A stretch of DNA of 34,114 bases from Deltaproteobacteria bacterium (GCA_029262515.1 JAJCZH010000034.1:1-34114); one strand, 5' to 3'. Positions 12,828 through 26,260 are shown, counted from the first letter of the stretch. The notes: generated by a model from the sequence alone, not told the origin. A program made the numbers and translations.

Positions 12828-13403
12828 TTGAACCGACGGATTAAAAAAAGATTCAGAAGCATCTGCAAGGCGCTGCTAACCGTACCGGTAAGCTATGCGC
12901 GTTGCGGTATGATACGCTCAGGTCGGTCTGTTGGCGCTCTTATGCCCTCAGGCAGGTTGGTGTCAGCCAGGTTTATACCGGCAACGATCGTTGGAGGCTC
13001 TCTAAGGTCTACAGCGAAGCTTACTCTTAAGAGGTCCTTGCTTAAGAGAAGCGGCACTGAAAGTATCAACCGTATGCAGGTACTGACACTGTGCAGTATA
13101 AAAGAGAAGGCAGCGCAGGGCCATAGAGCCAGCGTAAAAGCAGCAACGGTAGTATTAAAAGTTTTAGGCACGTTTCCATGTGCAACGAAACCGGTACAAC
13201 CCGCCATCACAGAATTACTCTCCTACAGCAATAATCTCACACATGAGTCAGTGTCGAATCAGGTATCGACTGCCGCTTCTTCAGGCATCGGCACCATACG
13301 TCCCGAGCGCAGGGTAGTAAGGTTTGCGCGTCCGAGCAAGGTCGGTCACGGCCTCAGCGTTCAACTTGCACGGGATGATCTCGACTCTATTCTCACCGCA
13401 TAA
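12828..13403 (+). CDS. orphan reading frame of unknown status before the nar operon
   Basis: A 191-codon open frame from TTG (weak GAGGA ten bases upstream) to TAA. I recognise no family. The product would be strongly basic, rich in Arg, Lys, Ser and Ala, with no signal peptide or clear membrane segment. The codons (gta, ctc, ggc, agg) resemble neighbouring genes and such a long frame is unlikely by chance at 50% GC, yet the opposite strand of the same stretch also reads openly: a 106-codon frame starting GTG at 13213 after AGGAGA with one hydrophobic segment, and another of 62 codons at 13281-13469. So this may be a gene, a decayed gene on the minus strand, or a long structured leader. The rest of the 12416-13605 gap has only the terminator and candidate promoter. 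Confidence 0.25.
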   Translation: MNRRIKKRFRSICKALLTVPVSYARCGMIRSGRSVGALMPSGRLVSARFIPATIVGGSLRSTAKLTLKRSLLKRSGTESINRMQVLTLCSIKEKAAQGHRASVKAATVVLKVLGTFPCATKPVQPAITELLSYSNNLTHESVSNQVSTAASSGIGTIRPERRVVRFARPSKVGHGLSVQLARDDLDSILTA

Positions 13404-13605: not shown

Positions 13606-14169
13606 ATGGTATTAGAAAGTTGTAAAAGGATGTTTGGAAAGGGCGTTCTGTTCGCATTGGCGCTCTTGCTTATTGCAGGAACGTTACCGCTGGCAGCAGA
13701 TGCGGCCATCGAACCTGGTAGCGCAGACACCGGTGAGAAGCTCTTTACCGGTCAGAAGCGTTTCACCAACGGTGGGCCACCATGTATATCTTGCCACAAC
13801 GCGGGCGTAGGTGCTCTCGGCGGCGGTGCTCTTGGTCCCGACCTGACAAAGGTATGGGCCGATCCGTCAAAGAACCCGTTGCTCAATGTGGCATGGGTAA
13901 ATAACGAGGGTATACCTGTAATGGGTCCCGTATTCTCCAAGAAGAACATCACAGAAGACGAGATGACGAATCTCAGGGCGTTCTTCGAGCAACAGTCGAA
14001 GGGCAAGGTGACCAACAAAGCCGGTATGTTTACGATTATAGGTCTCGGTGGTTTCATCGGCATACTTATCGTATTCAACATTATCTGGGCCGGTAGGTAT
14101 AGAAGCAGAAACAAGGGCACAGCCCATGATGCGCTTTGGAGAAACTACGGCGGAAAGGGAGGACGTTAA
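13606..14169 (+). CDS. membrane-anchored monoheme cytochrome c, first gene of the nar operon
   Basis: A 187-residue cytochrome probably facing the periplasm. Signal sequence to about residue 34 (ADA-A), then a single heme motif CISCH at 60-64, a Gly-rich loop, and VMGPVF with Met106 as likely sixth ligand. A C-terminal membrane helix (about 141-162) is followed by a 25-residue basic tail that would be cytoplasmic. The start ATG has AGGAGGTG upstream. The TAA is directly followed by the narG ATG, so it is translated with narG. Canonical narGHJI lacks such a gene, but cytochromes c are found with Nar in some lineages (for example NarC in Thermus). A plausible role is feeding or draining electrons at the periplasmic face of NarI, or linking to a cytochrome pool; this is inference. 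Confidence 0.88.
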   Translation: MVLESCKRMFGKGVLFALALLLIAGTLPLAADAAIEPGSADTGEKLFTGQKRFTNGGPPCISCHNAGVGALGGGALGPDLTKVWADPSKNPLLNVAWVNNEGIPVMGPVFSKKNITEDEMTNLRAFFEQQSKGKVTNKAGMFTIIGLGGFIGILIVFNIIWAGRYRSRNKGTAHDALWRNYGGKGGR

Positions 14170-17100
14170 ATGGCGACTAGTTGGATACAGGACGAAGTAA
14201 ACCCGACTAAAAGAGGTTGGGAAGAGTTTTATCGGAATCGCTGGCAGTACGATAAAACCGTGAGAAGTACGCACGGCAACAACTGTACAGGCGGTTGTAG
14301 TTGGATGGTATATGTAAAAGACGGTATCATTACCTGGGAGCTTCAGGCAGTTGACTATCCGAAACTGGAGCAGTCGCTTCCGCCGTACGAGCCCCGTGGT
14401 TGCCAGAGAGGTATCTCTGCATCCTGGTATGTATACAGCCCAGTAAGAATCAAGTACCCGTATGGCCGCGGCGTTCTTCTCGACGCGTGGAAAGAGGCCA
14501 AGAGCAGGCACTCCGATTCTGTTGATGCATGGACTTCCATCGTAGACAACCCTGAACTCATGAAGAAGATCAAGTGGAGCAGGGGTAAAGGTGGATTCCG
14601 CAGGTCGGATTGGGATACTACGACCGAAATCATCGCAGCGGCTCACGTACATACCATCAAAAGGTACGGTTCTGACAGGATTATCTGTTTCAGCCCGATA
14701 CCTGCGATGAGCCAGATCAGCTACGCATCAGGTGCTCGTTACAACCAGCTCGTTGGTGGTGTGCACTTGAGCTTCTACGATTACTACACGGACCTTCCGC
14801 CTGCAGAGCCTGAAGTATGGGGCGAGCAGACTGACTCCTGCGAGAGTGCGGACTGGTTCAATGCAGGTTACGTGGTAATGAGTGGTGCGAACCCGAACAT
14901 GACCAGAACCGCAGACTGTCACTTCGTATCCGAGCTTAGAATGGGTGGAGCAAAGCTTGTTGTCTGCTCTCCTGACTTTGCGCAGGTTACCAAGTACGCA
15001 GACCACTGGGTTCCGATCAGGACCGGTTCAGATGCTGCTTTCTGGATGTCAATCAAGCACGTTATACTCAAAGAGTTCTTCATCGACAGAACTGTTCCGT
15101 ATTTCGATGCTTACTGTAAGAACTACACCGATCTCCCGCATCTGGTCAAGCTGACCAAGGGTAAGAACGGTTATGAAATGGGCCGCTACCTCAGGGCATC
15201 CGATCTGGCTGAAGTTGCAGACACCGATAACGCAGAGTGGAAGTTCGCAATGTGGGATCTCAAGAGCAACAAGGCGCGTGTAACCAACGGTGGTATGGGT
15301 TACAGGTATCCGGGTCAGGACGCTTCCAAGGGTAAGTGGAACACTCTTCTTAAAGATGGTGAGAACGGCGAGAACCTCGACGTAGCTCTCAGCGTTCACG
15401 ATATCAAAGATGACGCCCTTGAAGTAAACATCTACGAGCTTGACAAGCCTGAAGTCTACAAAAGACAGGTTGGCGTTAAGTACGTAGAGTGCAAAGAAGG
15501 TCGCGTAGCGGTAGCCACGGTCTTTGATCTCAAGGTAGTTCAGTGTGGTGTCCAGCGTGACGGACTTACCGGCGACTATCCTGCCAACTATGATGATGAC
15601 AGGGGTTTTTCTCCTGCATGGCAGGAGAAGTACACCGGAATCGGCCGTGACGCGGTTACCAAGATAGCAAGGGAGTTCGCTTCCAACGCTGAAGTGACCA
15701 AGGGTCGTACCATGTGCATAGTCGGAGCCAGTTACAACCACTGGTACCACTCTGATCTCATGTACAGGACCATGATGGATGCCCTTATGCTCTGCGGTAC
15801 CGTTGGAAGAAACGGCGGTGGTCTGCAGCATTACGTTGGCCAGGAGAAGCTCGCACCGTTCGATTCATGGGGCCAGGTTGCCCATGCGCTCGACTGGTAC
15901 AGGCCTCCGAGACTTATGAACAACCCGAGTAACTGGTACATCCACACCCAGATGTTCAAGTACGATGGCGCGATCACCGATTACGTCGTGGTACCTGACA
16001 AGGATGCTCTCGAGTACGAGCACACCGCGGACTACAACGTTCGTGCCGTGAAGCTGGGTTGGCTGCCGTGTTACCCGCAGTTCAACAAGAGCAACAACGC
16101 GATCTGTGATGAGGCCATCAAGGGCGGAGCCAAGACCGACGCTGAGATAGTTGACTACACCGTCAACCAGCTCAAGTCCGGTGGTCTCCAGTTCACGATG
16201 GAAGATCCAGACGCTCCGGAGAACTGGCCGAGAGTCTGGTTCATCTGGCGTGCAAACGCTCTTGGATCGAGTGCGAGAGGAAACGAGTTCTTCCTCAAGT
16301 ACGTACTCGGTACTCACCACAACACCATCGCAGAAGAGGTCGCGAAGCCGTACCTTAAGGAGCTCAAGTACAGAGAGTCTCCTCTCGGTAAGCTCGATCT
16401 TCTTATCGACCTCAACATGCGTATGAATACGACACCGACGTACTGTGACATCGTTCTTCCGACGGCGCACTGGTATGAGAAGGAGGACATCAACACCACA
16501 GAGCTTCACTCCTTCCTCCATCCGATGGGCGCTGCCGTTCCGCCGAACTGGGAATCGAAGAGCGACTGGGATGCGTTCAAGTACATGTCGGTTCAGTTCT
16601 CGAAGCTCGCAAGAAAGCACCTCCCGACACCGATGAAAGAGGTCATTACTGCGGCTCTCGCCCATGATTCGCCTGGTGAGATCGCACAGCCTGCCCTCGA
16701 CGGTATCAAGCACTGGTACAAGGGAGAGTGTGAAGCGATACCTGGTAAAACCATGCCTGAGATCAGCGTTATCGAGCGTGACTACGCTAATGTTGACAAG
16801 CAGTATTCGGCACTTGGCCCGCTAATGAAGGGCAAGTACGGTTTCCACGGCATCATGATCAGTGGTAAAGAGCTCTATGAGGATTACATGGCACAGCCGC
16901 ACATCGACGTTAAAGATGTTAACGGTACGCCGATGATCTCCCTAGAGACGGCGAAAGAGGCTGCCAACGTTGTTATGGCATTCTCCGGAGCTACCAACGG
17001 TGAAGTCTCCTACAGGCAGTGGGTAGAAGAGGAGCACCATACCGGACTCCACGATGAGACCTATCAGGATGCTAAGAAAGCGGCCAGAAGTGTTCTTGGC

Positions 17101-17898
17101 GACGACATCAGGTACCTCTTCCCCAACGCCCACGGTGTTGCAGAAGAGATGGCCAGTGGCGACAGGAACTTTACCGTAACCTACGACGATATTGCCGCAC
17201 AGCCGAGACGCTGGCTCTCCAGCGCACTCTGGACCGGTGATAACAGAAGAGGCCGGGCTTATGGCACATGGACCATCCAGACTGAGCAGAGGGTTCCTTT
17301 CAGGACGCTCACAGGTAGGCAGCACTTCTACCTCGATCACCCTGTGTTCCTCGACTTCGGTGAAGGTCTGAGTACGAGTAAGTATAAGCTCAACCCTGCG
17401 AAGATGAATGAGCTCGTTAAGTCTGACAAGACTGATGCTCTTGAGCTCAACTACATCACCCCGCACGGTAAGTGGGCTATACACTCAACCCATTACGATA
17501 ACCTCAGGATGCTCACACTCTCTCGCGGAGGTAACTCCATCTGGGTCAACGACGCAGAGGCCGAGAGCGTAGGTATCAAGGATAACGACTGGGTAGAGGC
17601 GTACAATGACAACGGTATATTCGTATGTCGTGCGGTTGTTAGTGCCAGAATCCCTGCGGGCACCGCTTTCGCTTACCATTCTCAGGAGAGAACGGTAAAC
17701 ATACCGAAAGCAGAGCAGCGTAACAAGATACGCGGCGGGTTCCATAACAGCCTCACAAGGCAGCGTCTAAAACCGACCCTCATGACTGGTGGTTACGGAC
17801 AGTTCTCCTACGGCTTTAACGCCTGGGGTCCGATCCCGATCATTAGGGATACAACCGTGTTGGTTAGAAAAATGAGAAACCAGGAGGTGAAGTGGTAA
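14170..17898 (+). CDS. narG: respiratory nitrate reductase, alpha subunit (Mo-bisMGD)
   Basis: Catalytic subunit reducing nitrate to nitrite; 1242 residues, family length. The N-terminal [4Fe-4S] cluster FS0 ligands are His35, Cys39, Cys43 and Cys78 (THGNNCTGGCSW and PRGCQRG). The molybdenum ligand is Asp222 in GEQTD, the same residue and number as in E. coli NarG. The DLPPAEPEVWGEQTD, MNTTPTYCDIVLPTAHWYEKEDINTTELH and C-terminal HSQERTVN blocks are also typical. There is no twin-arginine signal at the N-terminus, so it should face the cytoplasm like classical NarG, unlike periplasmic nitrite oxidoreductases of Nitrospira type. GGAGG at 14158-14162 precedes the ATG. It overlaps narH by one base (TAATG). 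Long opposite-strand frames inside it are shadows. Confidence 0.98.
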   Translation: MATSWIQDEVNPTKRGWEEFYRNRWQYDKTVRSTHGNNCTGGCSWMVYVKDGIITWELQAVDYPKLEQSLPPYEPRGCQRGISASWYVYSPVRIKYPYGRGVLLDAWKEAKSRHSDSVDAWTSIVDNPELMKKIKWSRGKGGFRRSDWDTTTEIIAAAHVHTIKRYGSDRIICFSPIPAMSQISYASGARYNQLVGGVHLSFYDYYTDLPPAEPEVWGEQTDSCESADWFNAGYVVMSGANPNMTRTADCHFVSELRMGGAKLVVCSPDFAQVTKYADHWVPIRTGSDAAFWMSIKHVILKEFFIDRTVPYFDAYCKNYTDLPHLVKLTKGKNGYEMGRYLRASDLAEVADTDNAEWKFAMWDLKSNKARVTNGGMGYRYPGQDASKGKWNTLLKDGENGENLDVALSVHDIKDDALEVNIYELDKPEVYKRQVGVKYVECKEGRVAVATVFDLKVVQCGVQRDGLTGDYPANYDDDRGFSPAWQEKYTGIGRDAVTKIAREFASNAEVTKGRTMCIVGASYNHWYHSDLMYRTMMDALMLCGTVGRNGGGLQHYVGQEKLAPFDSWGQVAHALDWYRPPRLMNNPSNWYIHTQMFKYDGAITDYVVVPDKDALEYEHTADYNVRAVKLGWLPCYPQFNKSNNAICDEAIKGGAKTDAEIVDYTVNQLKSGGLQFTMEDPDAPENWPRVWFIWRANALGSSARGNEFFLKYVLGTHHNTIAEEVAKPYLKELKYRESPLGKLDLLIDLNMRMNTTPTYCDIVLPTAHWYEKEDINTTELHSFLHPMGAAVPPNWESKSDWDAFKYMSVQFSKLARKHLPTPMKEVITAALAHDSPGEIAQPALDGIKHWYKGECEAIPGKTMPEISVIERDYANVDKQYSALGPLMKGKYGFHGIMISGKELYEDYMAQPHIDVKDVNGTPMISLETAKEAANVVMAFSGATNGEVSYRQWVEEEHHTGLHDETYQDAKKAARSVLGDDIRYLFPNAHGVAEEMASGDRNFTVTYDDIAAQPRRWLSSALWTGDNRRGRAYGTWTIQTEQRVPFRTLTGRQHFYLDHPVFLDFGEGLSTSKYKLNPAKMNELVKSDKTDALELNYITPHGKWAIHSTHYDNLRMLTLSRGGNSIWVNDAEAESVGIKDNDWVEAYNDNGIFVCRAVVSARIPAGTAFAYHSQERTVNIPKAEQRNKIRGGFHNSLTRQRLKPTLMTGGYGQFSYGFNAWGPIPIIRDTTVLVRKMRNQEVKW

Positions 17899-19418
17899 TG
17901 GATATTCGTGCACAGCTTTCAATGAGTTTTCATATGGACAAGTGCATCGGTTGCCACACCTGTAGTGTGTCCTGTAAGAACGTATGGACCACACGCAGAG
18001 GCGCCGAGTACATGTGGTGGAACAACGTCGAGACCAAGCCCGGAGCCGGGTACCCTGTAACCTGGGAAGACCAGGACAGGTACCGTGGCGGTTGGGAAGT
18101 CTCCGGCGGAAGTCTCAGGCTAAAGCTCCTCAAGGGGCCCGGTAAGATCCGTTCGCTTGCGAACATCTTCTTCCAGCCGAACCTTCCGACGATCGACGAT
18201 TACTATGAACCGTTTACGTTCGATTATCAGCACCTGTTCAACGCCCCGGCCGGAGACGATCAGCCGACGGCTAGAGCAAGGTCACTGATAACCGGTGACT
18301 TCATGGAGAAGATCGTTCTTGGCCCGAACTGGGATGATGACATGGGTGGTTCGCCGCTCTACGCATCGAACGATCCGAACCTCAAGGGTCTCTCGGATTC
18401 GCAGAAAGAGATGCTTACCAAGTTCCATAAGCTCTTTTTCTTCTACCTTCCGAGGATATGCAATCACTGTCTCAACCCTGCATGCGTAGCTTCGTGTCCT
18501 TCGGGCGCAATCTACAAGAGGGGTGAGGACGGCATTGTTCTGATAGATCAGGACACCTGTCGTGCATGGAGATTCTGCGTAAGCGCATGCCCGTTCAAAA
18601 AGCCGTACTACAACTGGGCAAACGGTAAGAGTGAGAAGTGTATCTTCTGCTACCCGAGGACAGAGACCGGCCAGGCCAACGCCTGCGCCCACGCCTGTAC
18701 CGGTAGGATCCGTTTTGTCGGCGTTCTTCTTTACGACGCTGACAAGATTGAGGATGTCGCAAAGAGCTCCGACGAAAGACTCGTCGAGGCTATGAGGGAT
18801 ATCTGTCTCGATCCTAACGACCCGAAGGTAATAGAAGGCGCAATCAAAGCCGGAATAACACAGGACTGGATTACGGCCGCACAGAATTCCCCGGCCTACA
18901 ATCTGTTCGTCAAGTGGCGCATAGCCACTCCGAACCATCCTGAGTTCAGAACGGTGCCGATGAACTTCTATATTCCGCCGTTATCACCAATCCTCCACGA
19001 CTCCAAGGCTGGAAGTGGCGGTGTCTTTGATCCGATATCGGATGAGTTCTTCAACGATGTCGATAAGATGAGAGTCCCGCTTCGCTACCTCGCCAATATG
19101 CTGTCTGCCGGAAACGAGCAGGTCATAGCGGAGTCGCTTAAGAAGCAGATGGCTGTCAGGATGTATGTTCGCCAGCAGCGTGTCGGTGACGTAGGTGAGA
19201 GCAAGGTTAAATCCGTTCTCAGCGATGTCGGACTTACGGCACAGGATTGCGAAGATATATACAGGCTCACGGCCCTCGGTACGTTCCAGGAAAGGTTTGT
19301 AATTCCTGAGACGCATCGTGAGACCATGACCACTGTTGAGCCAAGGACGATGTACGAGAAGAGAGGAACCATCGGGTTCGGAACAAAGAAGCAGCATCTC
19401 GTAAGTAGGACCTGGTAA
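17898..19418 (+). CDS. narH: respiratory nitrate reductase, beta (iron-sulfur) subunit
   Basis: Electron-transfer subunit relaying electrons from NarI heme to NarG; 506 residues. I start at ATG 17898 because MDIRAQLSM aligns with the known MKIRSQVGM start of E. coli; a GTG two codons upstream is possible. Four Cys groups are present: CIGCHTCSVSC, CNHCLNPACVASC, CRAWRFCVSAC, and CIFC followed by CAHAC. In the third group Trp replaces one Cys (C-x2-W-x2-C), exactly as in NarH, indicating three [4Fe-4S] and one [3Fe-4S] cluster. The SEKCIFCYPR and LLYDADKIE blocks are family signatures. AGGAGG lies within the narG end (17882-17887). Confidence 0.98.
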   Translation: MDIRAQLSMSFHMDKCIGCHTCSVSCKNVWTTRRGAEYMWWNNVETKPGAGYPVTWEDQDRYRGGWEVSGGSLRLKLLKGPGKIRSLANIFFQPNLPTIDDYYEPFTFDYQHLFNAPAGDDQPTARARSLITGDFMEKIVLGPNWDDDMGGSPLYASNDPNLKGLSDSQKEMLTKFHKLFFFYLPRICNHCLNPACVASCPSGAIYKRGEDGIVLIDQDTCRAWRFCVSACPFKKPYYNWANGKSEKCIFCYPRTETGQANACAHACTGRIRFVGVLLYDADKIEDVAKSSDERLVEAMRDICLDPNDPKVIEGAIKAGITQDWITAAQNSPAYNLFVKWRIATPNHPEFRTVPMNFYIPPLSPILHDSKAGSGGVFDPISDEFFNDVDKMRVPLRYLANMLSAGNEQVIAESLKKQMAVRMYVRQQRVGDVGESKVKSVLSDVGLTAQDCEDIYRLTALGTFQERFVIPETHRETMTTVEPRTMYEKRGTIGFGTKKQHLVSRTW

Positions 19419-19423
19419 ATATA

Positions 19424-19975
19424 ATGATGGTAACCAAGGAAAAGAGTATATACGACAGCCTTGCGGGATTACTGCAGCACCCGCGGGAGGATATCAAGCT
19501 CAGGGTCGATGAGTGCATCAAGATGCTCAACGATTCGGGCGCCTATCCTGATGCAGTCGACGACCTGAAGCATTTTCTTAAGGATCTGGAGAATATGCCC
19601 CTGGACGATTTGCAGGGGTACTACTCTTATACATTCGAGCTGACGGCCGAACATACTCTTGACCTTGGGCACCATCTTTATGATGGTTTCAAACGCTCGA
19701 ATACACTTGCTTCGCTAAAGGCAATGTATAGAGAGCATAATTTTCCCGTTGACGAAGTGGCCAAGGGGGAGCTTGCCGATCACCTTCCGGTAGTGTTGAG
19801 GTTCTTAGCTGTATGCAAGGACGAGGACCTGAAGATGGATCTGCTAGCAACGTTGGTGAATATGGCTGTAGAAAAGCTCATGAAGAGCTTTGAAAGAAAC
19901 CCTAATAACGTTTACGGTCACTTGGTAAACGCCACATACAGAGTCTTAGACAAAGACGTTAAGGAGGTCCAGTAA
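19424..19975 (+). CDS. narJ: nitrate reductase assembly chaperone (TorD/NarJ family)
   Basis: Cytoplasmic chaperone that binds the NarG N-terminus and permits molybdenum cofactor insertion; not part of the final enzyme. At 183 residues it is shorter than E. coli NarJ (236), as is common outside Gammaproteobacteria. The helical fold shows the conserved central stretch YYSYTFELTAEHTLDLGHHLY, the equivalent of the 'YV..FD' block, then HLPVVLRFLA. It follows narH by five bases and narI begins two bases after its stop. No strong ribosome binding site precedes it, so translation is probably coupled to narH; either of two adjacent ATG codons (19424, 19427) could start it. Confidence 0.92.
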   Translation: MMVTKEKSIYDSLAGLLQHPREDIKLRVDECIKMLNDSGAYPDAVDDLKHFLKDLENMPLDDLQGYYSYTFELTAEHTLDLGHHLYDGFKRSNTLASLKAMYREHNFPVDEVAKGELADHLPVVLRFLAVCKDEDLKMDLLATLVNMAVEKLMKSFERNPNNVYGHLVNATYRVLDKDVKEVQ

Positions 19976-19977
19976 AC

Positions 19978-20679
19978 ATGGTTGACACTTTTCTATTCGG
20001 CGGCATGCCGTATATACTGATCATGATTGCGATAGTTGGATCGATCTGGAGGTTTACTTCCAATAAGTATACCTGGTCGTCCCAGTCGTCGCAGTTTGTC
20101 GAGAACAAGACATTGTTCTTCGGCTCATTCCCGTGGCACTACGGTATCATTACGATCATCGTGGGTCACATTGTAGGTCTCATAATACCGCAGTCTTTCC
20201 TGTGGTGGAACAGCGTACCGGTAAGGCTCTACATTCTTGAGCTTTCCGGTCTGGCGCTCGCTTTCCTCGCGCTCTTCGGTCTTCTTGCTCTTATCTACAG
20301 AAGGCTGACCAACACGAGGGTAAAGGCCCTAACCTCCTCCTGGGACGTTCTTCTTCTTATCGTCCTTCTCATTCAGGTGGTAACCGGCATAGGCAACGCC
20401 ATTATGTACAGGTGGGGCTCAAACTGGTTCGCAGCAGAGGCATCCCCGTGGTTCTATTCCATAATCACTCTGAACCCGGATGTTTCATACATAGCGAACC
20501 TTCCGTTAATAACCAAGGTGCATATTTTCAACGCGATGATCTTCATAGGTCTCATCCCGTTCACGCGTCTCGTGCACTTCGTAGTAATCAATCCGTACAA
20601 GTACCTCTTCAGACCTTACCAGGTCGTAAGGTGGTACTCGAGGTCCGAAAAGACCCCGAACATAGTACAGTACAAGTAG
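19978..20679 (+). CDS. narI: respiratory nitrate reductase, gamma (cytochrome b) subunit
   Basis: Membrane diheme cytochrome b that oxidises quinol at the periplasmic side and anchors NarGH; 233 residues with five predicted helices. The four heme-ligand histidines are present: His54 (PWHYG), His64 (VGHIVG), His182 (KVHIF) and His200 (RLVHF), matching His56, 66, 187 and 205 of E. coli. The FFGSFPWHYGI and FTRLVHF blocks are diagnostic. The ATG lies just after AAGGAGG at the end of narJ. It ends the packed operon cytochrome-narG-narH-narJ-narI. With all hemes kept, it can accept quinol electrons independently of the operon's cytochrome c. Confidence 0.97.
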   Translation: MVDTFLFGGMPYILIMIAIVGSIWRFTSNKYTWSSQSSQFVENKTLFFGSFPWHYGIITIIVGHIVGLIIPQSFLWWNSVPVRLYILELSGLALAFLALFGLLALIYRRLTNTRVKALTSSWDVLLLIVLLIQVVTGIGNAIMYRWGSNWFAAEASPWFYSIITLNPDVSYIANLPLITKVHIFNAMIFIGLIPFTRLVHFVVINPYKYLFRPYQVVRWYSRSEKTPNIVQYK

Positions 20680-21013: not shown

Positions 21014-22624
21014 ATGGCGAACATTCATGAATGGAATGTAGAGGATGATGGTTTTTGGAACTCTACAGGAAAAAAGATAGCAACGAGGAACCTCTGGATC
21101 TCGATCCCGAGTCTGCTTGTTGGATTCGCAACGTGGTTGATGTGGGGTATCATCGCTGTGCAGATGATGAACCTCGGTTTCGACTTCACCAAACCGCAGC
21201 TATTTACCCTCGCGGCTATAGCCGGACTGACAGGGGCGACACTCAGAATACCGAGTTCATTTATGATCCGTATCGCGGGTGGTCGTAATACCATCTTCTT
21301 TACGACGGCGCTTATGATGATACCGTCCGTATTGGCCGGTATACTCCTTCAGAGTAAAGATACTCCGCTCGTAGCCTTCCAGATCTGTGCGTTCCTCTCA
21401 GGTTTCGGTGGCGGTAACTTTGCGTCTTCAATGAGTAACATAAGCTTCTTCTACCCGAAGAAGGTACAGGGTACCTCACTCGGCCTCAACGCCGGACTCG
21501 GTAACTTCGGTGTTACTACGATGCAGGTTCTTATTCCTCTTGTCATGACCTTTGCTCTTCTCGGTCCGATAAGCGGTGAGTCTATGATCCTTGTCAACAC
21601 GAGTGGTACTCTTATCGGTAAGATTCCCGCAGGTTCTGAGACATGGATTGCAAACGCAGGTTGGGTCTGGATGTTCTGGCTCATTCCGCTCGCTTTTGCC
21701 GGCTGGTTTGGCATGAACAACCTGGTTGTTCCGCACGTATCACCGGATATCTCTAGCCCGATAGCATCGTTCGGTAAGATCCTTTACCTGCTCTGCTGTG
21801 CATTCATCACTGCCGGCATAGGACTCTACTGTGTGCTTCCGGCACCGATCGGTCTCGGACTCAACAAGTGGATTGTACTGCTCTGTGTCTTGATAGCAAC
21901 GCTTGCACTGATGCGCTATGCTACTCCTAAGGTTATTAGAGATAACCTTGCGAGGCAGTTTAAGATATTCGGCAACTCGCATACCTGGATCATGACGGTT
22001 ATCTATACGATGACTTTTGGATCTTTTATCGGTTTTGCTGCTTCATTTCCGCTTTCAATCAAGGTTATCTTCGGCTTTCAGCATATACAGGATGCCGCAG
22101 GCAACTGGACACATAACCTGCCTAACGCAAATGGACCGAGTGCGCTAACTTACGCCTGGATCGGTCCCTTCATTGGTGCGCTTATCCGCCCTGTTGGTGG
22201 TTTTATCTCTGATAAACTTGGCGGTGCACTTGTTACACAGATCTGCGCTATAGGTATGGTTGTCTGTGCTGTCGCAGTCTCTTTTGTCATGAAGGCGGCG
22301 TACGTTTCTGCTACACCTGAAACAGTTTTCGTTCCGTTCTTCCTGCTCTTCCTCGGACTCTTCTTCTTCTCGGGGATAGGAAACGGTTCGACCTTTAGAA
22401 CAATCTCAATGGTCTTTAACGAAGAGCAGGCTGGACCTGTTCTCGGCTTTACCTCTGCTGTTGCAGCCTACGGCGCATTCATCATGCCTAAGGTTATCGG
22501 TGAGCAGATTAAGGCGACCACACCGCAGTACGCATTATGGGGCTTTGCGGCTTTCTATGCGGTCTGCGTTGTGCTCAACTTCCTCGCGTACCTGAGACCG
22601 GGTTGCAAGTATAGAAACCCGTAA
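21014..22624 (+). CDS. narK: nitrate/nitrite transporter, E. coli NarK-type MFS porter
   Basis: Second inner-membrane nitrate/nitrite porter, 536 residues, 12 predicted helices with a longer central loop than the porter at 10925. The SGATLRIPSSF-like element (here TGATLRIPSSFMIRIAGGRNT) in helix 2 carries the substrate-binding Arg of NarK. Signature 1 is GLNAGLGNFGVTTMQ; signature 2 is GFTSAVAAYGAFIMPK, the NarK/NarU form rather than the GNVG form of the other porter. NarK-type proteins exchange nitrate for nitrite, which would remove toxic nitrite produced by NarG. The start ATG follows AAAGGAG. It lies 334 bases after narI, has its own leader and a very strong terminator, and so may be separately controlled. 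Confidence 0.94.
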   Translation: MANIHEWNVEDDGFWNSTGKKIATRNLWISIPSLLVGFATWLMWGIIAVQMMNLGFDFTKPQLFTLAAIAGLTGATLRIPSSFMIRIAGGRNTIFFTTALMMIPSVLAGILLQSKDTPLVAFQICAFLSGFGGGNFASSMSNISFFYPKKVQGTSLGLNAGLGNFGVTTMQVLIPLVMTFALLGPISGESMILVNTSGTLIGKIPAGSETWIANAGWVWMFWLIPLAFAGWFGMNNLVVPHVSPDISSPIASFGKILYLLCCAFITAGIGLYCVLPAPIGLGLNKWIVLLCVLIATLALMRYATPKVIRDNLARQFKIFGNSHTWIMTVIYTMTFGSFIGFAASFPLSIKVIFGFQHIQDAAGNWTHNLPNANGPSALTYAWIGPFIGALIRPVGGFISDKLGGALVTQICAIGMVVCAVAVSFVMKAAYVSATPETVFVPFFLLFLGLFFFSGIGNGSTFRTISMVFNEEQAGPVLGFTSAVAAYGAFIMPKVIGEQIKATTPQYALWGFAAFYAVCVVLNFLAYLRPGCKYRNP

Positions 22625-22859: not shown

Positions 22860-23180
22860 ATGGGCAAGCTTGATAGTTATGATAACTTTGGCGTAGAAAA
22901 AATGACAAAGGCAGAGCATGCCGAAAAGCAGGAGAAAGTACTTGCAGTCTGTAAATGCAAGGGTTGTCCCAGTTATGTAGAGGGTGACAATCCGAGTGGC
23001 GCTTACTGTTTTCCTCTTATAGGTACCAGTAAAGCGATTCAGTGGGAGAAGGATTGTATCTGCGGCACGTGTCCTGTTTATAAAGAGTATGAACTCGATC
23101 ATAACCACTACTGTACGAGGTGCTCTCAGTTCTGCCAGTCATTACAGACTTTAAGCGCCGATTCGGGTGCGGGAAATTAA
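22860..23180 (+). CDS. Cys-rich DUF2769-like protein
   Basis: A 106-residue soluble protein of unknown function with ten cysteines: Cys31, 33, 36, 50, 66, 68, 71, 85, 88 and 92, plus His81 and His83. The arrangement C-x-C-x2-C-P-S-Y, then AYCFPLIG, then C-I-C-G-T-C-P-V-Y-K-E-Y and HYCTRC matches what I recall of DUF2769, a family seen in methanogens and other anaerobes. The two near-repeats (CKCKGCPSY and CICGTCPVY) suggest two metal sites, zinc or iron-sulfur; this is inferred from spacing only. There is no signal peptide. AGGAGG precedes the ATG, and it has its own promoter and terminator, so it is a single-gene unit just beyond the nitrate locus. Confidence 0.78.
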   Translation: MGKLDSYDNFGVEKMTKAEHAEKQEKVLAVCKCKGCPSYVEGDNPSGAYCFPLIGTSKAIQWEKDCICGTCPVYKEYELDHNHYCTRCSQFCQSLQTLSADSGAGN

Positions 23181-23187
23181 ATAGTAT

Positions 23188-23221
23188 GCGGTTCTGCCTG
23201 CAAGGGGAGCCGCTTTTTTTT
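23188..23221 (+). terminator. rho-independent terminator after the DUF2769-like gene
   Basis: Arms GCGGTTC (23188-23194) and GAGCCGC (23207-23213) with one G-T pair, then eight T. Confidence 0.8.
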
Positions 23222-23233
23222 ACCTTTCACTGC

Positions 23234-23297
23234 CTGTATGACAGATACAGCTGTGGCAAAACCGAACAATAGCCCTTTACTGTTCGGTCTGGCACAG
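23234..23297 (+). other. tandem hairpins in intergenic DNA
   Basis: First hairpin: arms CTGTAT and ATACAG (23234-23250). Second, directly adjoining: CTGTG (23251-23255) with CACAG (23293-23297) enclosing perfect 8-bp arms ACCGAACA (23261-23268) and TGTTCGGT (23281-23288). They lie past a terminator and 150 bases before the next gene. Possible small RNA or leader structure of the next gene; no known RNA family recognised. Confidence 0.4.
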
Positions 23298-23443
23298 GTA
23301 CGCCTAACCGCCTGTCAGGCTTATATAATTCATCCTGTTACAGTTATAAATTGCTGGACATGAGACCACGGATGTTGTAATATTATAGGTCTAGAGTACA
23401 TATATATATTTAAATACAAATCGTAATGAAGGAGATGTAATCA

Positions 23444-23965
23444 ATGCAGATTAAGACGGCCGAAGAGGCGAAGACGTCTGTCAAGCAGTGGCTTGAAGAG
23501 AATCATCACAAACTTAACGAAATGACCGATGATAAGGTCTCTTTTCATTTTGAGGTAGACTACCCGGTTGGTTCACTCAAGAGGCAGAGAGTACTTCAGC
23601 CCAAGGATTTTCCGGGCCTTATAGTGCTTCTTAACGGCGTATCCGTTGCCAAGGAGCATGTGGAAATGCTCAAGGAGATCAGCCAGGAAGAGAGAGAGGC
23701 CTTCTACGCCGAGATCAGGAACGATCTTATCTTCAACCGCAACAGTTACGACATCAATATCGATGAAGAGGGTATTGCGCAGCAGATCCAGTTCTCGTTT
23801 GAGTTCTATCTCGATAGCCTGACAAAGACCAAGCTCTTTGAGGGACTTCTGCTCAACCACAGAACCCTTATCTATATCGTTTCCAAGTTTAATGACAAGT
23901 TCGGCCTGCCGGTAATGCCGGATACTACACCTACTGTTGGTGGAGAGACTGTAGGCACTGCCTGA
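23444..23965 (+). CDS. DUF2299-like protein of unknown function
   Basis: A 173-residue soluble alpha/beta protein without signal peptide, membrane segment or cysteine. It opens with an amphipathic helix ending VKQWLEENHHKLNE, continues as beta strands (VSFHFEVDYP, FPGLIVLLNGV), a charged helix (EEREAFYAEIRNDLIF) and ends with a Pro/Thr/Gly-rich tail. The order and the 'WLEE...F.F...P.....I.I' pattern resemble DUF2299, known mostly from archaea and some anaerobic bacteria; I hold this at moderate confidence. GGAGATG lies seven bases before the ATG. It lies between the DUF2769-like and hemerythrin genes, same strand, with 62 bases before the latter, so those two may be co-transcribed. Confidence 0.65.
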   Translation: MQIKTAEEAKTSVKQWLEENHHKLNEMTDDKVSFHFEVDYPVGSLKRQRVLQPKDFPGLIVLLNGVSVAKEHVEMLKEISQEEREAFYAEIRNDLIFNRNSYDINIDEEGIAQQIQFSFEFYLDSLTKTKLFEGLLLNHRTLIYIVSKFNDKFGLPVMPDTTPTVGGETVGTA

Positions 23966-24027
23966 GTTTAGTCAGTGCTTAGCCCCGGTTTAGGTCGCAG
24001 CTTTATTTCATATAGGAGGTAGATACT

Positions 24028-24897
24028 ATGTCTGACGAGTCGGTTTTATATGTGAAGTATGAGTGCATGCACCCATCCTGCGTTGTCCATTGCAGACGTG
24101 GCGAATTCGACATAGTTGAGGGCCTGTTCAACGAGCTCTCCGATTTCTATAAGGACAAGGAAGGCTCTTTCAAGAGTCCGAAAGAGATCTGTCGCCTGGG
24201 GTTTCCGCAGGAGTTCAGAGCGTTGAAGGTCAGGGCGGTTAACGACGGAGAGGTGATAAGCGATGTTGCTCCCGAGTGCACCACCGAGATCTATAGCGAT
24301 ACCGGCGACGACCCTGGTGTGATAAAGCTGCTTAAGAAAGAGCATCAGCATATAATGGATATCCTCGACCGGATCGAGATCGAGATACAGAGCAGGGATG
24401 TTCAAGCTCTGTGGATCTCGTCAGCCGATCTGGTAAACGATATACTGCTTCACTCCAATAAGAAAGAGGAACTCGCTTTCTTTCCTCACTTGAAGGGGCT
24501 TCTTCCTATGGCTGAAGGCGTTGTATCGATTATCAAGGAGGATCATGCCGAGTTCTTTACGGTTCTTGAATCCTTCCGCGATTCTCTGGAAGAGGGCTAC
24601 CTTATGGACGGTTTGGCACGCTCTGTTGTAACCAACCTCAGGAACCATATACGTAAAGAGAACAATGAGTTCTTTCAGCTCATAATACCGTATATTGATG
24701 ATGAGCTGGATGCCAAGGTGCTTGCGGATATGCAGAAGGCAGAGGATGAGTACGTACCGTATGTCGCTCCTCCGCTCGATGTGGAGAAGGCGCGTCAGAC
24801 AGAAAAGGCTAAGCAACGCCGTATCTACGATGCTGAGAAGGATAACCTGAGAGCAGCCGTTGCGGCCAGTGCCGACGGTAGCTGTTGCGGAGTTTAG
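24028..24897 (+). CDS. hemerythrin-domain (HHE) protein with Cys-rich ends
   Basis: A 289-residue cytoplasmic protein. Residues about 97-222 form a hemerythrin-like four-helix bundle with the di-iron ligand pattern His106, His142, Glu147/148, His173, His207 and Glu211. The N-terminal 90 residues are not hemerythrin and hold CMHPSC at 13-18, then His21, Cys22, Cys55 and Cys84; the C-terminus ends CCGV. HHE proteins bind O2 or NO or repair iron-sulfur clusters (YtfE/ScdA type). Nitrate respiration makes nitrite and NO nearby, so an NO-protection role is reasonable but inferred. AGGAGG precedes the ATG. A bidirectional terminator follows. Confidence 0.85.
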   Translation: MSDESVLYVKYECMHPSCVVHCRRGEFDIVEGLFNELSDFYKDKEGSFKSPKEICRLGFPQEFRALKVRAVNDGEVISDVAPECTTEIYSDTGDDPGVIKLLKKEHQHIMDILDRIEIEIQSRDVQALWISSADLVNDILLHSNKKEELAFFPHLKGLLPMAEGVVSIIKEDHAEFFTVLESFRDSLEEGYLMDGLARSVVTNLRNHIRKENNEFFQLIIPYIDDELDAKVLADMQKAEDEYVPYVAPPLDVEKARQTEKAKQRRIYDAEKDNLRAAVAASADGSCCGV

Positions 24898-25023
24898 CCC
24901 TGTCTATTCTTTTCGGGCTTAGTTTTACCGAGGTTGATAGGAACGGGCTTCAGTCTGCAAGATATAAAGAACTCTTTGCAAACCGAGAGGTTCTTACGAG
25001 TTGAGAAGTTATAGTATGGCATT

Positions 25024-25058
25024 AAAAAGGGCTGCGGAATTTTTCCGCGGCCCTTTTT
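25024..25058. terminator. bidirectional terminator between convergent genes
   Basis: A-run, stem GGGCTGCGGAA paired with TTCCGCGGCCC (one G-T pair), T-run. It serves the hemerythrin gene on plus and the membrane-protein gene on minus, whose stop codon abuts it. Confidence 0.88.
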
Positions 25059-25421
25059 TTATAGCGGTATATTTGTGATAAGGACATAGAGCCAGATAAG
25101 TATCATCGAGGCGCCTATCCAGCTTACGTACTTGAAAGCCCGCCTGCTCCGCCGCCGGACTATCGATATCTTTAAAGAGATAAGACCCAGTGCGCTTACC
25201 CAGCCCAGAAACGCCCACAGGTGGATGCCGTTAATTATGAAGCTTGATATTGCTACGGATGAGAGCAAAACTACCGAGCAGTAGCCGTTTATGCGGTGGA
25301 TTATACCATCCACTGAAGACCGCTTAACCTTAATAAGCTGTAGTCCGCTTATAAAGCTCGATGTGGCAAGCACCAGGCCTATGCTTGCGAGTATCATCGG
25401 AATTTTTATCAGTATGTCCAC
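25059..25421 (-). CDS. small four-helix membrane protein, unknown function
   Basis: A 120-residue integral membrane protein with four predicted helices (about 5-30, 45-65, 67-88, 97-117). Two histidines near helix ends (His42 in HRINGY, His67 in HLWAFLGW) and the basic loop IVRRRSRRAFK recall small bacterial cytochrome-b-like or DUF420/DUF6529-type proteins, in which such histidines could bind heme; this is not proven. It starts with GTG, sharing its first G with the stop TAG of the upstream gene (TAGTG), so translation is coupled and the two products probably work together in the membrane. Confidence 0.7.
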   Translation of the reverse strand: MDILIKIPMILASIGLVLATSSFISGLQLIKVKRSSVDGIIHRINGYCSVVLLSSVAISSFIINGIHLWAFLGWVSALGLISLKISIVRRRSRRAFKYVSWIGASMILIWLYVLITNIPL

Positions 25422-26260
25422 TACTTTTCCTTACCCAACAATATCAGGGCCCTGCGTACGATCAGTCTCTGCAGCAGGTAGAATATTACGCCGGTATAGA
25501 TCATGATTATCGGCAGTATTATATAGAGGTTAGGCAGCGTGCTGTTATCCTCGTAGATATTACCGCTGCTCTCGCTCTCGATAAGCCCGTACATATTTCT
25601 GTAGGCTTCATTGTCCGTTATGTTGTTGTCGTTTGAGTCCCATAGCAGTATACCGTTCCAGGTATTATGGTTTGTGCTGTTCTCCCTTATGTCATTATTG
25701 TCAGCGTAGGAGAGGAAGATACCCTTGTCCGAGTTCTGTCCGGCGATATTACCGACAACGGTATTGCCGGATGAGCGCTCCAGATATATCCCATAAGTCT
25801 CGTTAAACTCTGTACGGTTCTCACTGATGGTATTGGACTCCGAATCGACCACCGCAATGCCTATCCTGTTCTTGCTTGCGCTGGAGCGCGATACGGTTAT
25901 CTTTGAAGAGTGGAGCAAGAGTATGCCGGCCTCTTCAGTAGAGCCTTCCGTATTTATTCCGTCTATAGATGCACCTATCGTTCCCTCCACTTTGATAACA
26001 GGTAGAGTCGTATCTTTTGCCGCTACTACCACTTTTGCGTCATAAGATGCGGCGCGCAGGTGTATCGCTTTATCTATTGCAATGTTTTCAACGTAGCGGC
26101 CTTTATTAATTAGTATAAGATCACCGGGCAGCGACCTGTCTACTGCGGTCTGTATGTTACCATTGCCCTCAGTAACACGTATGGTTGCAGCCACGCAGAT
26201 GTCGGCGGCTGCGATGATAAATGATAACAGTATAAGTAGAATTACATGTTTTTTACCCAT
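25421..26260 (-). CDS. NosD-like right-handed beta-helix protein with C-terminal membrane anchor
   Basis: A 279-residue exported protein: signal peptide at about 1-25 (ending VAA), then a parallel beta-helix of about 110-220 made of repeated 22-residue coils such as NTVVGNIAGQNSDKGIFLSY and NDNNITDNEAYRNMYGLIES, and a membrane helix at about 242-262 followed by a short basic tail. The N-terminal part (IQTAVDRSLPGDLILINKGRYVENI) is typical of NosD/periplasmic copper-binding repeats. In nos clusters NosD helps copper maturation of nitrous oxide reductase, but no nosZ, nosF or nosY is visible here. The role may be another metal-protein maturation or polysaccharide binding. It overlaps the small membrane-protein gene downstream. 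Confidence 0.78.
   Translation of the reverse strand: MGKKHVILLILLSFIIAAADICVAATIRVTEGNGNIQTAVDRSLPGDLILINKGRYVENIAIDKAIHLRAASYDAKVVVAAKDTTLPVIKVEGTIGASIDGINTEGSTEEAGILLLHSSKITVSRSSASKNRIGIAVVDSESNTISENRTEFNETYGIYLERSSGNTVVGNIAGQNSDKGIFLSYADNNDIRENSTNHNTWNGILLWDSNDNNITDNEAYRNMYGLIESESSGNIYEDNSTLPNLYIILPIIMIYTGVIFYLLQRLIVRRALILLGKEK

Follow-up and report, generated by a model that had tools for sequence, protein, structure and literature searches.

Five genes downstream of narGHJI-narK in a 34,114-nucleotide stretch of DNA from a Deltaproteobacteria bacterium (hereafter the window) appear to make up one accessory module for a single clade of the nitrate reductase NarGHI, most likely serving its maturation and quality control, a reading that we prefer at slightly below even confidence. 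They encode a DUF2769 protein, a DUF2299 protein, a hemerythrin-domain (HHE) protein, a four-transmembrane (4-TM) protein, and a NosD-like parallel beta-helix protein (Table 1). Dozens of uncultivated bacteria have the five beside nar, and elsewhere in the phylum they are nearly absent, which argues for joint work on the enzyme; very probably, they together build, load, or guard nitrate reductase.

Table 1. Features of the window discussed in the text, with the basis of their assignment.
Feature	Position	Strand	Basis or remark
Mono-heme (CxxCH) cytochrome c, narC-like position	13606..14169	+	translation, hydropathy
narGHJI, partner operon	14170..20679	+	NCBIfam narG and narI over cut-off
NarG	14170-17898		within narGHJI
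NarJ	19424-19975		within narGHJI
NarK-type nitrate/nitrite MFS transporter, between narI and cassette	21014..22624	+	NarK family score
DUF2769 protein	22860..23180	+	106 aa, no TM segment; PF10967
DUF2299 protein	23444..23965	+	PF10061
Hemerythrin-domain (HHE) protein	24028..24897	+	289 aa; PF01814
4-TM membrane protein	25059..25421	-	120 aa; hydropathy and alignment
NosD-like parallel beta-helix protein	25421..26260	-	PF05048

With 1376 bits, NarG of the window exceeds the cut-off of the NCBIfam narG equivalog (1084 bits), and its best PDB match is E. coli NarG; on these two grounds, a nitrite oxidoreductase was rejected. NarK scores 287.5 bits against the NCBIfam NarK family, slightly below the cut-off of 311.7. 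The cytochrome c has hydrophobic segments at both the N- and C-terminus, and the gene maps place such a gene before narG in most loci. All five ORFs that a preliminary description of this DNA had located at 22860-26260 are present there, and what it said of the single proteins also holds, namely a ten-Cys DUF2769 protein with two C-x-C-x2-C sites (exact, with PF10967 above cut-off), a DUF2299-like protein (PF10061 over cut-off), an HHE protein with extra Cys at both ends, and a convergent coupled pair of a membrane-anchored beta-helix and a His-bearing membrane protein. Elsewhere in the window, two minus-strand ORFs lie at 168-1187, the first of which carries a CxxCH motif (CAACH) and resembles a c-type cytochrome. 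A short ORF at 12828-13403, upstream of the cytochrome c/narG start, resembles by eye the ORFs of the L073/L074 type; counterparts were seen in 14 loci, e.g., L073:2826-3512 and L074:3290-3751, with the conserved stretch RIRKELKRLCQCLFYAAAVR. It has no Pfam match and is possibly a small gene or a leader.

The linkage of the genes was counted in 59 relatives. A scan of the genome contigs with the single hemerythrin protein gave no match, and the DUF2299 alignment used as query recovered 49 loci. DUF2299 and the hemerythrin gene occur in the same genome in 41 cases and are adjacent in 41/41, with a gap of at most 305 bp; DUF2769 was detected in 37 of these 41 genomes and is never more than 7 kb from NarG in the 27 genomes that have both on one contig. 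The NosD>4-TM order is found in 35 loci (median gap 2 bp). Three main layouts are seen. Layout A, that of the window, reads narGHJI-narK-DUF2769-DUF2299-HHE followed by the convergent 4TM-NosD; layout B reads narGHJI-narK-DUF2769-NosD-4TM-HHE followed by the convergent DUF2299; in layout C (eight loci), the genes are co-directional after narK and HHE and NosD overlap nearly always. Layout C comprises all five genes in L136, a genome labelled Desulfuromonadales, and four of the five in the Nitrospirota-labelled contigs L148, L123, and L139, in which DUF2769 is not recognisable. Another Nitrospirota contig, L128, has four genes, and nar is absent from its upstream 7 kb. HHE without a detected NarG was met in eight relatives, for the most part where the contig is short or ends nearby, and in one of them (G025), narHJI is on the same contig. 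Re-ordering with retention is better evidence of joint function than conservation at a single locus; since the genes have been re-ordered yet kept together, they are best taken as one system. The grouping of the five genes proposed in the preliminary description is thus borne out, and the neighbourhood analysis that it called for shows DUF2769-DUF2299-HHE to be strongly and recurrently associated with nar. Conservation places the set far beyond chance: the ten Cys of DUF2769 vary little or not at all, and C13, C18, C22, and C55 of the hemerythrin and His42 of the 4-TM protein do not vary in the alignments described below. A plasmid collection searched with the DUF2299, DUF2769, and hemerythrin proteins gave no match. 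In three loci (L064:7926-10725, L126:349-8010, and L127:235-7718), a respiratory block is inserted in the nar locus after narI and before the cassette; it comprises two genes each of the COX1-like and COX2-like types, SCO1, and a cytochrome b/Fer4/FlpD fusion, and perhaps encodes an O2 or NO reductase.

The set is specific for one narG clade. Among 247 evenly sampled genomes of the phylum, the hemerythrin profile matches 10 and the 4-TM profile the identical 10 and none else (Fisher 5e-18); NarG is present in nine of them. NarG itself is found in 18 of the 247 genomes. Where it is at least 69% identical to that of the window, the set is present (9/9); where it is 45-55% identical, the set is missing (0/9; Fisher 4e-5), and none of the cassette genes was found beside the nine divergent narG loci of the phylum. 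DUF2769 occurs in the same nine NarG genomes, with four weaker matches elsewhere. In the NarH tree, the cassette-associated sequences, Nitrospirota included, fall on one side of a branch with 100/99 support, and NarH of the Nitrospirota contig L148 lies among the Deltaproteobacteria rows, its exact place being modestly supported; the L148 locus suggests that nar and the cassette were transferred together between phyla. Furthermore, the pairwise distances of DUF2299 track those of NarI (r=0.88). NarG of the cassette clade carries five clade-specific His and an insertion of ~26 residues near 964-992, within the stretch 956-992 and adjoining an invariant His-His, that is missing in the cassette-free NarG of the same phylum. 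This insertion is a possible docking site.

The DUF2769 protein scores 50.3 bits against PF10967 (Pfam gathering cut-off 22.8). It has ten Cys (31, 33, 36, 50, 66, 68, 71, 85, 88, and 92) in the pattern CxCxxC..C..CxCxxC..CxxCxxxC, all invariant or nearly so in an alignment of 23 sequences, and is probably an Fe-S or Zn protein. Compared as profiles, the hemerythrin and DUF2769 alignments proved unrelated, and a PDB sequence search with both profiles gave no meaningful match.

The DUF2299 protein (PF10061, 80.4 bits vs. a gathering cut-off of 22.8) has about 46 invariant columns in an alignment of 25 sequences. Its AF2 model (pLDDT 85) has as top Foldseek match 3cxj, the DUF2299 protein of Methanothermobacter (TMt 0.89), which is archaeal and 23% identical, although the sequence similarity is detectable (E 5e-17). 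YbjN and type III secretion (T3SS) chaperones come next (6vu7, E 9e-5; AmyR, TMt 0.60; T3SS chaperones, TMt about 0.5-0.67), so that the protein, as modelled, has the YbjN/type III-chaperone fold. Not every YbjN-fold protein is a chaperone. The likeness of YbjN to type III secretion chaperones has been described (PMC5398634, PMC3575483). A solitary DUF2299 gene was seen in G010 (L153:132-707), at a contig start by sugar-nucleotide genes, in a genome without the hemerythrin or a close NarG.

The HHE domain of the hemerythrin protein spans residues 99-218 (PF01814, 49.2 bits vs. a cut-off of 25.3), and among 26 aligned sequences, its residues H106, H142, E147, E148, H173, H207, and E211 are invariant, as are C13, C18, C22, and C55 of the N-terminal domain; the C-terminal tail is Cys-rich. 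The AF2 model (pLDDT 89) shows a small beta domain followed by a helical bundle. Foldseek gave no match to this model at E<=0.001 (best 3cax, 1.8e-3), and the N-terminal domain is therefore left without an assigned fold. A Pfam scan at E<=0.1 detected PF01814 alone and not ScdA_N (PF04405). Binding of O2 or NO is common among hemerythrins. Hemerythrin domains are encoded at four further loci in the genome of the window, one of them with DUF2249, so that it is the N-terminal domain and the linkage that make the cassette protein special. The DUF2249-hemerythrin protein lies on contig 38 (L165:1255-1932), and DUF2249 is a domain of Thermus DrpA/DrpB.

The NosD-like protein scores 91.5 bits against PF05048 (gathering cut-off 23.6) and has two hydrophobic segments by hydropathy, one N-terminal (signal-like) and one C-terminal (TM). 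On the minus strand, the end of its gene shares one base with the start of the 4-TM gene, and the pair is convergent with the hemerythrin gene. With NosD of nitrous oxide reductase maturation (TIGR04247), it shares the parallel beta-helix, probable export, and a metal-enzyme neighbourhood; unlike that NosD, it has a C-terminal TM anchor and a 4-TM partner, it reaches 78.5 bits where the TIGR04247 cut-off is 300, and no nos gene was recognised in the neighbourhoods examined. The 4-TM protein has no family in Pfam, NCBIfam, or PHROGs, and its invariant residues are His42 (in 20 aligned sequences), Asn45, Gly46, Trp74, and Trp110.

Molybdenum-cofactor (Moco) genes are the other recurrent neighbours of the set. 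A moa/mob/moe/mog run whose mogA is followed by a co-directional DUF2299 gene is present in several family-f4 genomes (G011, G013, G021, and G025). On a 71-kb contig of G006, the molybdate-uptake/Moco operon moaA-modABC-moaC-moaE-mobB-mobA-moeA-mogA has the hemerythrin gene as its final member (modABC being read from the solute-binding, permease, and ATPase families and context), and narGHJI-DUF2769-NosD-4TM is on a separate contig; G015, of the same genus g5, has the same arrangement as far as its contig extends. Because the hemerythrin gene closes a Moco operon in genus g5, with narGHJI on another contig in G006, the set may consist of two parts, a cytosolic pair (HHE and DUF2299) and a nar-bound remainder (DUF2769, NosD, and 4TM). 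Moco and nar genes cluster generally, and a MobA-like ORF (judged by eye) also lies beside the cassette-free nar of L157; the Moco link, therefore, counts mainly in genus g5, the one genus with a clean separation of Moco and nar. Nitrite reduction shows no such association: the hemerythrin gene does not follow NirS (p=0.27), nirS is absent in 18 and present in 15 of the carriers of set and NarG, and it occurs in six genomes without NarG and without the set. That the set follows nirS or nrfA was rejected, nirS being scattered and NrfA absent or weak. Upstream of the genes, FNR, HcpR, NsrR, NorR, and NarL-type sites showed no excess over shuffled sequence, a weak negative because the regulators of these bacteria may differ from the known ones.

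In the maturation reading, DUF2299 would bind, in the manner of a chaperone, either a Nar subunit or a protein that delivers the cofactor, and the Cys4-hemerythrin, its constant partner, and the ten-Cys DUF2769 would handle iron or Fe-S, possibly permitting loading only when O2 or NO is absent. A matching job in the membrane and periplasm, the site of NarI and the adjacent cytochrome c, would fall to the NosD-like/4-TM pair. The linkage, the three layouts, the clade specificity, the tracking of NarH and NarI and not of NirS, the g5 Moco operon, the DUF2299 fold, and the Thermus precedent all point this way. Against these stand the many nar operons that work without the cassette, the presence in the window of NarJ, the known Nar chaperone, and the Nitrospirota loci without recognisable DUF2769.

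The main rival to maturation, still a serious one though rather unlikely, is protection or repair: the hemerythrin would scavenge NO or O2 or repair Fe-S clusters that NO derived from nitrite has damaged, DUF2769 would supply iron or clusters, and the envelope pair would guard periplasmic and membrane metal sites. The preliminary description had proposed such a joint system protecting metal clusters against nitrite and NO; the joint system stands, whereas the protective role finds no direct support. The invariant His/Glu and Cys of the hemerythrin protein would suit it, and since the genome of the window reduces nitrate and neither NrfA (weak matches at most in relatives) nor NirS was found in it, nitrite could accumulate there and give NO. 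The set, however, follows one narG clade and not nirS, is absent beside all nine divergent narG loci, and shows no FNR, HcpR, or NsrR-type sites upstream; its hemerythrin/DUF2299 pair has Moco neighbours in several genomes, and its hemerythrin lacks ScdA_N and is one among several in the genome, the DUF2249-hemerythrin included.

Regulation and electron transfer are less likely. A Drp-like sensory role, with the envelope pair sensing nitrate, the hemerythrin sensing O2 or NO, and DUF2299 relaying to nar expression, would fit the post-nar position shared with drpAB, the nitrate-independent nar expression that follows loss of DrpA and DrpB (PMC6282519), and the description of the YbjN structure 6vu7 as a putative transcription regulator. 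It is nevertheless improbable, as the cassette has neither DUF2249 nor DUF1858, no DNA-binding domain was found in it, and two-component genes lie near nar in some genomes only. Very improbable is an electron-transfer role, in which the cytochrome c, the 4-TM protein with its His, and the Cys-rich proteins would give this Nar clade another path for electrons. The invariant His and the membrane-anchored mono-heme cytochrome c directly before narG in most loci would suit such a role, but a cytochrome c gene of this type also occurs in several nar operons of the phylum that have no cassette, the single invariant His of the 4-TM protein gives no bis-His heme site, and neither DUF2299 nor the beta-helix shows a recognised redox site.

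Returning to maturation, a bolder form of it, possible though doubtful, is a previously undescribed five-component system on which the entire NarG clade depends, across two or more phyla, and which couples Moco supply to Nar assembly through the Cys4-hemerythrin. This would give DUF2769, DUF2299, and the new 4-TM family their first function. No description of the five-gene module was found in the literature searched, and the papers searched make no mention of DUF2769 or DUF2299. The component domains are known and nar accessory modules are a known kind; there is a fair chance that the set is a distinct maturation system. That five conserved proteins form a second, clade-specific set suggests that uncultivated bacteria of groundwater and sediment depend for nitrate respiration on unstudied partners, and owing to the tight linkage, few deletions or co-expressions could assign functions to several families.

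Among known systems, RIC/YtfE di-iron repair proteins share with the cassette hemerythrin a hemerythrin domain and a Cys-bearing N-terminal part. The cassette protein differs in lacking ScdA_N, in a Cys4 domain of other spacing, in its nar linkage, and in H142-x4-E147 in helix 2, where YtfE has H-x3-E. NarJ is the textbook assembly factor of nitrate reductase, itself among the best-studied respiratory enzymes. It shares with the cassette the role of a Nar-dedicated accessory encoded beside the structural genes and differs in being a separate protein already present in the window, DUF2299 having the YbjN/T3SS-chaperone fold. In Thermus, drpAB lies downstream of the nar operon; DrpA and DrpB are needed for full nitrate reductase activity, and in the double mutant, NarG is made and activity is about one-tenth (PMC6282519). 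DrpA/DrpB and the cassette have in common conserved small genes just after narGHJI-narK, a tie to nitrate respiration, and products in different cell compartments, as predicted for the cassette; the Thermus proteins have DUF2249 and DUF1858 domains, both absent from all five cassette proteins in the Pfam scan, and are encoded by two genes, not five. By analogy, DrpA/DrpB is the closest precedent for the cassette, with unrelated domains in the same position.
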